Below, piece after piece: positions 43,898 through 45,653 of a stretch of 47,598 nt of DNA (its first letter is position 1; each line of letters opens with the position of its first letter). Under the pieces are notes generated by a model. The model saw only the letters and a program-made list of their open reading frames with translations, had not been told where the DNA came from and did not search any database. The stretch covers positions 2,144-49,741 of the forward strand of contig VKHL01000172.1 in assembly GCA_015146655.1 (NCBI GenBank), given 5' to 3'. The position numbers and the translations under genes are program-made. Source of the stretch: Ochromonas danica (lineage: Eukaryota; Sar; Chrysophyceae; Chromulinales; Chromulinaceae).

Positions 43898-44399
43898 CTC
43901 ACTTGATGTGCACAGAGACGAGGGGGCGCTTCTTCTTCTTCTTGACCTCCTCCTCCTTCTCCTCACTGACCTCCTCTGCGTCCTCTTCCACCTCGTCTCT
44001 CTTCCGCTTCTTCTTCTCTTTCTTCTCCTTCTTGTTCTTCTTTTTCTTATTCTTCGAGCTCTCCTCGTCGCTGACATCCTTGCGGTAGTTGTTCTTGAGG
44101 ATGTCCAGCACGGAATTGAAGGAAGTCACTGTGGACGACCAGGCTTTGGATCCCACCGTGTCGTCCACCACTCCCTCCATGCCCAGGCCCAGGCCCACGT
44201 CTCTTTTCTTCATCTTCAGATGGGAGGTCATGCCAGAGCCGTCCTTGCCCAGGCCTTTGTCTTCGCTCCAGCCCATCTTCTGCAGCATGCGGTAGCCAAA
44301 GCCGCTCTTGTTCTTCTTCCAGTGGCTGTTGAGCGTGTCTTCGAGCTCTGCAGCCACTGGCACTGCCACAGGCTCGGAGGAGGAAGAAGACTCGGTCAT
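43490..44399 (-). CDS. G-patch protein, PINX1/PXR1-like
   Basis: Two exons, 44399-43903 and 43595-43490, joined over a 307-bp intron, give 200 residues. Without splicing the gene would stop at the donor. The G-patch spans about residues 33-73: FGYRMLQKMGWSEDKGLG then VGLGLG. It is followed by SFNSVLDILKNNY, matching the FNxLLxxLN helix of PINX1/Pxr1, then a long Lys/Glu-rich region, and the spliced end VHIKYKKFHEAKDLSSKS, which matches the RxxKFxxAKxxSxxS motif of Pxr1-type proteins. Yeast Pxr1 acts in rRNA and snoRNA processing with the helicase Prp43, and human PINX1 also binds telomerase. A nucleolar role is likely. The second exon is only 34 residues, and its intron contains CT/CA microsatellites. 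Confidence 0.87.
43855..43891. repeat. CA and GA microsatellites inside the G-patch intron
   Basis: A short CA run followed by a (GA) run at about 43867-43891. Read on the minus strand it is a CT run directly after the splice donor. It helps explain why this intron is several times longer than its neighbours. Confidence 0.85.
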
Positions 44400-44703
44400 C
44401 CCACAACTGAAAGATACGCGCGACAAACTGAAAAGAGCGAATAAGGAATGAATGACTGGAGAACAGCAGCAGCCCCACCGGTGCACACACACACACGCTG
44501 GACCTGGAGAAACGCGTTTGATAACTGCAGCCAGATATCCAGAGGGCCAGAACTAGCCCCTCTCTGTCTGTCTCTGTGTGTTGTCTGTCTCTGTCTGTCT
44601 CTGCCATAGTGGCGAATTGTCAATTGTTTGTCAATCAATCACAAACAAAAGCAAAGCAAAGCAAAGCCAAGCCAAGCCAAGCCAAGGGAAGTGAAGAAGA
44701 GAA
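44400..44703. promoter_or_regulatory. Divergent spacer between the G-patch and M-domain genes
   Basis: 304 bp with CTGT-type repeats (44562-44600) and GCAAA/GCCAA pentamer repeats (44649-44685) just before the plus-strand start. It should hold both promoters. No named element was recognised. Confidence 0.45.
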
Positions 44704-45653
44704 ATGCTGAGCAGAGCTAGTCGTCAGTTGATTCTTTCTAACAGCGTGCCTGCTAGTAAGATAGCTGTGCGTCACATGGGCTTCTTCAGCGACACCATCA
44801 CTAGCATGACAACGAAGACCATGGAGTCCTCCAGAAGTACCTCCTCCTCCTCCTCCTGCTCCTCCTCCTGCTCCTGCCCCCAGCCTCGCTGACCTCTTGC
44901 TTCTTCTCTGACTGTCTTCTTGTAGAGAAGGCCTTCGACAAGATGTTGGACCTCATGCTGAACTCCGAGACTTGGTCTCTGCGAGTGTGGAAGGCCACCA
45001 TGGACGAGCACCTCAACAGCTGGATGATGTACATCCCCGGCGTCTCCTCGGCCAACGAGACCAAAGAGCTCAAGGTCATACGAGGTAACTAGAGTCTCTC
45101 TATCTCTCTCTCTATCTCTTAGCTGACTCTCCTCCTCCTCCTCCTCCTCCTCCTCCTCTTCCTCCTCCTGCACCACCACAGACATCATGCAGTCCATGAC
45201 TGACGCCGAGCTGGACGACGCCACCTTGATCAACGGAAAGGTCAAGGAGCGCCTGGCCATCCAATCGAACCATCCCATTGACCAGGTCCACCGCCTCTTC
45301 GTCTTCTACAATCAGAGCCGCGTGATGCAGCAGTGGCTCAGGATGAAGTGAGACACCCCCCTTACCTACCCTACCCTACCCTACCCTGTCCCTATAGTAC
45401 CTGACTGACAGAGTGACTTTGCTTCTATTGACAGGAAGGAGAAGGGCGAGCCTCTGCCTCAGAGCGATGTTGAGATGCAGAAGTTGGCGTCAGAGGACCC
45501 TCGCATCAAAGTCATCACACAGAAAGTGTAAGATAGCACAGCCTCCTCCTCCTCCTGCTGCTGCTGCTGCTCTCTCTGATTGGTCCTTGGTTATGATTCA
45601 ATAGGCTGTTTCCTGATAGGCGCAAGACGGGACGGTCTCGCTCCATGTTCTAA
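44704..45653 (+). CDS. Stand-alone SRP54/Ffh M-domain-like protein, probably mitochondrial (MAP67-like)
   Basis: Five exons, 44704-44836, 44926-45084, 45182-45347, 45435-45527 and 45605-45653, with consistent phases, give 199 residues. The first 25 residues (MLSRASRQLILSNSV, then VRHMGFF) are basic, Ser-rich and free of acids, like a mitochondrial presequence. The body follows the SRP54/Ffh M domain: FDKMLDLMLN, a YIPGV motif in place of IPG, DIMQSMTDAEL (SMTxxEL is a hallmark), LINGKVKERLA for the INxSRxxRIA RNA-binding helix, PIDQVHRLFVFYNQS, and QQWLRMKKEKGEP. There is no NG GTPase domain. The RNA-binding Arg/Gly residues (SRxxRIAxGSG) are largely replaced, so SRP RNA binding is unlikely. 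I recall MAP67 as the name of a mitochondrial protein family related to the Ffh signal-peptide-binding domain; this gene fits it. Confidence 0.8.

Follow-up and report, generated by a model that had tools for sequence, protein, structure and literature searches.

The closest described counterparts of the protein considered here are probably the MAP67 proteins and their mitoribosomal form, mL105, and what follows about them is taken from excerpts of the published accounts. In Tetrahymena, mL105 sits where the mitoribosomal tunnel opens; its C-terminal helix reaches inside, next to a loop of bL23m, and the protein has been described as an orthologue of MAP67 (Pyrih et al. 2021, PMC8321541). In Polytomella, mL105 is found at the tunnel exit as well, where extensions of bL24m and uL29m keep it in position. 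It is associated there with a density attributed to the OXA1L insertase, and its site overlaps the one that mL45 takes in metazoans. The protein is also discussed in a paper on Toxoplasma. MAP67 of Arabidopsis, Chlamydomonas and Toxoplasma has been assigned to mitochondria by mass spectrometry, a method that does not thereby place it on the ribosome (PMC8321541). The MAP67 family, its mitochondrial location, its position on the ribosome and the loss of RNA-binding residues are, in the excerpted literature, already in print for other members.

The gene presented here lies on the plus strand (44704-45653) of the window, by which we mean the whole stretch of 47,598 nucleotides that was analysed. 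Its spliced exons form a coding sequence of 600 nt including the stop codon, which encodes a 199-residue protein. The features are as follows:

Exon 1, 44704-44836, plus strand: ATG and presequence-like leader (residues 1-29 without an acidic residue), through codon 45
Intron 1, 44837-44925, plus strand: 89 bases, GT..AG
Exon 2, 44926-45084, plus strand: Met-rich stretch N-terminal to the Pfam core, to YIPGV...VIR
Intron 2, 45085-45181, plus strand: 97 bases, GT..AG
Exon 3, 45182-45347, plus strand: M-domain core (SMTDAEL..LINGKVKERLAIQSN..), with the RNA-binding motif mostly replaced
Intron 3, 45348-45434, plus strand: 87 bases, GT..AG
Exon 4, 45435-45527, plus strand: KEKGxPLP motif, common with mL105, and the next segment
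Intron 4, 45528-45604, plus strand: 77 bases, GT..AG
Exon 5, 45605-45653, plus strand: basic C-terminal tail (..GRSRSMF) and stop codon

All four introns (89, 97, 87 and 77 bases) have GT..AG borders, and the exon junctions fall in codons 45, 98, 153 and 184. An in-frame TGA at 44692-44694, 9 bases 5' of the ATG, fixes the N-terminus, barring an additional 5' exon. The length of intron 3 is a multiple of three; read-through is nevertheless impossible because a stop codon follows immediately in frame (ORF 45127..45351). The alignment with mL105 described below spans residues 35-185, so that junctions 1-3 are well covered and junction 4, in codon 184, is covered by a single residue. The chain of five exons and 199 residues proposed in the preliminary description is thus borne out as a predicted gene model by its introns, by the upstream stop and by the mL105 alignment across the junctions. 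Head to head with this gene, on the minus strand at 43899-44399, is a G-patch gene (PF01585, E 1.1e-13). The two genes begin about 300 bases apart and run in opposite directions, so the promoter region may be common to both. A frame for a ubiquitin hydrolase (PF00443, E 9.6e-21) lies downstream, and neither neighbour has a bearing on the function of the M-domain protein.

SRP_SPB, the M domain of Ffh and SRP54, is the sole Pfam family above its cut-off in the 199-residue protein (residues 74-146, E 5e-11, 43.3 bits against a cut-off of 27), and a score above the cut-off puts this match far beyond chance. The frame of exon 3 alone also passes, at 29.5 against 27 bits, when the whole genome is searched in six frames, and single-sequence AlphaFold2 returned a poor model of this 74-residue frame (mean pLDDT 66.5, pTM 0.32). 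Among the Pfam families listed for the protein at E<=10 there was no GTPase family, and no Pfam domain was found C-terminal to the M domain. The only other entry at that threshold, a paramyxovirus phosphoprotein model with E 0.028, lies below its own cut-off and was set aside as a chance match. The NCBIfam model ffh (TIGR00959) matches residues 34-146 with E 5.1e-6 and scores 25.6 bits, where the cut-off is 473.2, and SRP54_euk reaches 14.6 bits against 576.25. Membership of SRP54/Ffh calls for an NG GTPase together with an M domain that bears the RNA-binding motif, a combination not present here. What the protein does have, as in MAP67 and mL105, is an M domain homologous to that of Ffh and SRP54 over most of its length, with the N and G domains absent. 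The profile match and the missing GTPase domain agree with the earlier reading of a stand-alone M domain.

When the whole protein was searched against PDB sequences with phmmer, chain AT of 6Z1P came first of 19 matches at E<=10 (E 2e-8, 37.5 bits, query residues 35-185), and the runner-up was the Ffh structure 2FFH (E 0.00067, 22.8 bits). Chain AT is mL105 according to the descriptions in the excerpted papers. In the pairwise alignment the protein is 22% identical to the mL105 segment, and a four-way alignment gives identities to the window protein of 26% for E. coli Ffh, 21% for mL105 and 17% for the plastid-type SRP54. Past the end of the Pfam match, the window protein and mL105 have LR-x-KKEKG-x-PLP in common, and the profile search also aligned a common GRS(K/R) at the C-terminus. 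For residues 147-199, the last 53 and outside the Pfam match, the sole PDB match at E<=10 is again chain AT of 6Z1P, with an E of 0.29 that is non-significant alone. With only the M-domain core (residues 58-146) as query, Ffh is the top match at E 0.0028, and mL105 is absent from the 19 matches at E<=1. Since the core favours Ffh, it is the whole protein and its tail that carry the family assignment. None of the Polytomella chains (8A22, 8APN, 8APO), nor any chain labelled mL105, was retrieved in the PDB searches, which, like the low identity to mL105 and the higher one to E. coli Ffh, counts against the assignment. Membership of the predicted protein in MAP67 is well supported by its architecture, its whole-protein score and its tail, and the family claim made at the outset is supported, the top whole-protein match being the MAP67 orthologue. 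A search of the viral collection confirmed no relatives among 378 pattern matches, and the prokaryote collection gave four loci out of 360 pattern matches (according to their titles two Methanoregula, one Methanocalculus and one uncultured Methanomicrobiales archaeon). One of these loci (L037) sits in a 441-residue frame that looks like an ordinary SRP54.

The RNA-binding motif of E. coli Ffh reads G396-S-R398-K-R-R401-I-A-A-G405-C-G407, and the window protein has G116-K-V118-K-E-R121-L-A-I-Q125-S-N127 in its place (Ffh GSRKRRIAAGCG against GKVKERLAIQSN). We take R398, R401 and the turn glycines of Ffh to be the positions important for RNA binding. Of the four, three differ in the window protein (R398 to V118, G405 to Q125, G407 to N127) and R401 is kept as R121, while all four are replaced in mL105 according to the four-way alignment. 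The loss of RNA-binding residues asserted in the preliminary description thus applies to R398, G405 and G407 and does not apply to the helix-M4 arginine R401, with which the protein might still bind RNA. That assertion was sound, slightly overstated, and already published for a Plasmodium member, in which, according to an excerpt of the 2021 report, the helix-M4 arginines are missing and some hydrophobic residues of the groove are kept.

The first 29 residues contain four K/R and no D/E, a composition matched in 0.9% of 20,000 samples drawn at random from residues 31-199. The amphipathic moment is maximal at residues 19-36, partly beyond the presumed leader, so that amphipathicity lends weak support. 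A hydrophobic N-terminus followed by phenylalanine is a mark of import into complex plastids. The N-termini of the plastid-type SRP54 and FtsY of this genome consist of a hydrophobic stretch and then phenylalanine (..AGAF and ..LYGF), whereas a long hydrophobic stretch with a subsequent phenylalanine is absent from the N-terminus of the window protein; the highest mean Kyte-Doolittle value over 13 residues is 1.03 here and 2.35 and 1.77 in the plastid-type proteins. The absence of these features favours the mitochondrion over the plastid, and a mitochondrial location, predicted from simple scores of the leader, is the favoured one, consistent with the mitochondrial-type N-terminus noted earlier. 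The protein might instead be a plastid one, a second and stand-alone M domain beside the plastid SRP54 of the alga, given that two contigs with red-type rbcL-rbcS mark the assembly as algal and that the genome encodes a bacterial-type SRP54 and FtsY with plastid-type N-termini. With neither the hydrophobic stretch nor the phenylalanine of these two proteins, and with a mitoribosomal protein as its top whole-protein match, it is very unlikely that the window protein acts there. The plastid-type SRP54 (L001, contig G000:C61) itself has an M domain without the RNA-binding motif (..SPVAKKEVKEAAFEQQKDLAKRAN..), and its signal-peptide-like N-terminus is followed by F.

The red-type rbcL and rbcS genes lie on contigs G000:C193 (L041) and G000:C289 (L042), and the two rbcL are 88.1% identical (430/488); following them, a cbbX-like frame on one contig and an ilvB-like frame on the other were named by eye. 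Two mitogenome contigs, G000:C214 (L023-L026) and G000:C237 (L020-L022), have a similar gene content. Their COX1 proteins are 86.3% identical (428/496), and rRNA genes were detected on C214 alone. The differing mitogenome contigs indicate that the assembly may be derived from two related algae. That an alga with a red-type plastid is represented rests on rbcL-rbcS and the two plastid-type N-termini, and we infer that the window comes from the same organism as the plastid-type genes; GC content is 0.514 in the window and 0.506 at L001. The eEF1A of the assembly is without the insertion that marks opisthokonts. Fusion of triose-phosphate isomerase (TPI) to GAPDH is a stramenopile trait. Seven TPI matches were found on contigs G000:C106, C160, C45 and C306 (L029-L035), two of them with an internal stop, and the five of these seven loci that were scanned for the fusion had no GAPDH motif.

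The genome was also searched for possible partners. PF00448 gave three matches among nine candidates, in two genes, a bacterial/plastid-type SRP54 (ffh 464.2 bits, cut-off 473.2) and FtsY (ftsY 204.3 bits on a partial protein, cut-off 260.7). As both SRP-GTPase genes are of the plastid type by N-terminus and scores, a mitochondrial Ffh and a mitochondrial FtsY went undetected in this genome search. SRP RNA was not found at the gathering score in the 68,962 bases that were covered out of 69,116 in the two mitogenome contigs, C237 being perhaps incomplete. The Oxa1 family is represented by six matches at four loci, and some of these loci may encode plastid Alb3; there are two LETM1-type genes. 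A single gene matched PF04280 and was judged by eye to be Tim44 itself, so that mL45 was undetected, although a divergent or intron-split copy could escape such a search. MBA1 (PF07961) and TMEM70 (PF06979) had no match here nor in 14 control genomes, which makes these searches uninformative; PF06979 is linked to TMEM223/Mrx15. PF00448 and PF02978 found neither cytosolic SRP54 nor SR-alpha in the genome, for which an assembly gap, introns and the limits of the searches are all possible reasons.

It is highly probable that the gene is the alga's MAP67/mL105, and that its product is a guide for nascent chains at the mitoribosome exit which uses neither RNA nor GTPase and feeds an Oxa1-type insertase. 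Import, ribosome docking and membrane targeting we infer from the relatives of the protein. The leader would direct import into the mitochondrial matrix, where the M domain would dock on the mitoribosome, at the site where polypeptides leave it, through protein contacts that replace the SRP RNA, with the C-terminal segment extending into the tunnel. As membrane proteins encoded in the mitochondrion come out of the ribosome, the Met-rich groove could then contact their hydrophobic segments, and the M-domain protein would keep the ribosome near an Oxa1-type insertase, without involvement of a GTPase, a receptor or SRP RNA.

Ffh itself is mobile, and by this analogy the protein could be mitochondrial but soluble, a mobile M-domain factor for signal-like nascent chains instead of a stable ribosomal protein. 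The mass spectrometry of MAP67 is compatible with such a factor, in that the excerpted report places the proteins in mitochondria but does not show them on ribosomes (PMC8321541). However, the mitoribosome structures of Tetrahymena and Polytomella include mL105, as far as the excerpts describe them, and the segment that follows the core is common to Tetrahymena mL105 and the window protein, which makes a purely mobile role very unlikely. That the gene is a broken or misjoined fragment of a cytosolic SRP54 gene, for which it counts that PF00448 and PF02978 searches of the assembly found no cytosolic SRP54, is extremely unlikely for a gene with its own ATG, an in-frame stop just 5' of it, four clean introns, an additional C-terminal segment, an RNA-binding motif that is mostly replaced and an SRP54_euk score of only 14.6 bits (cut-off 576.25).

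The MAP67/mL105 reading thus adds one more compact gene of this family, from an alga. It agrees with the published view of a remnant of bacterial SRP that persists in many eukaryotes as a mitoribosomal part. If the proposed function were demonstrated, it would explain how nascent membrane proteins could be guided in mitochondria without SRP RNA, Ffh or FtsY. A wider proposition appears rather doubtful: both organelles would work with RNA-free M domains, the plastid with its SRP54 and the mitochondrion with MAP67, and MAP67, in the place of metazoan mL45, would have taken on the entire SRP step as a permanent component of the ribosome, with one of several Oxa1 paralogues as its dedicated partner.

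Compared with known systems, the window protein resembles E. coli Ffh in its M-domain core, which includes the SMT motif (26% identical residues when the four sequences are aligned), but it is without the NG domain, its RNA motif is mostly replaced and its C-terminal segment is different. With the plastid-type SRP54 of G000:C61 it has the M domain in common, in which the RNA motif is replaced as well; that protein, however, has the NG-M arrangement and a signal-peptide-like N-terminus, and the window protein has neither. The MAP67 family, as described in the excerpts of PMC8321541, is alike in having a stand-alone, Ffh-related M domain without N and G domains and with a leader compatible with mitochondrial import, whereas its members in Chloroplastida and Centrohelida carry SecA-type C-terminal extensions that the window protein is without. 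Tetrahymena mL105 (6Z1P chain AT; PMC7326499, in part) differs at 22% identity and in a longer N-terminal part, the match starting at residue 35 of the window protein and at residue 123 of the chain, and it is alike in being alignable over residues 35-185, in KEKGxPLP and in the C-terminal GRS(K/R).
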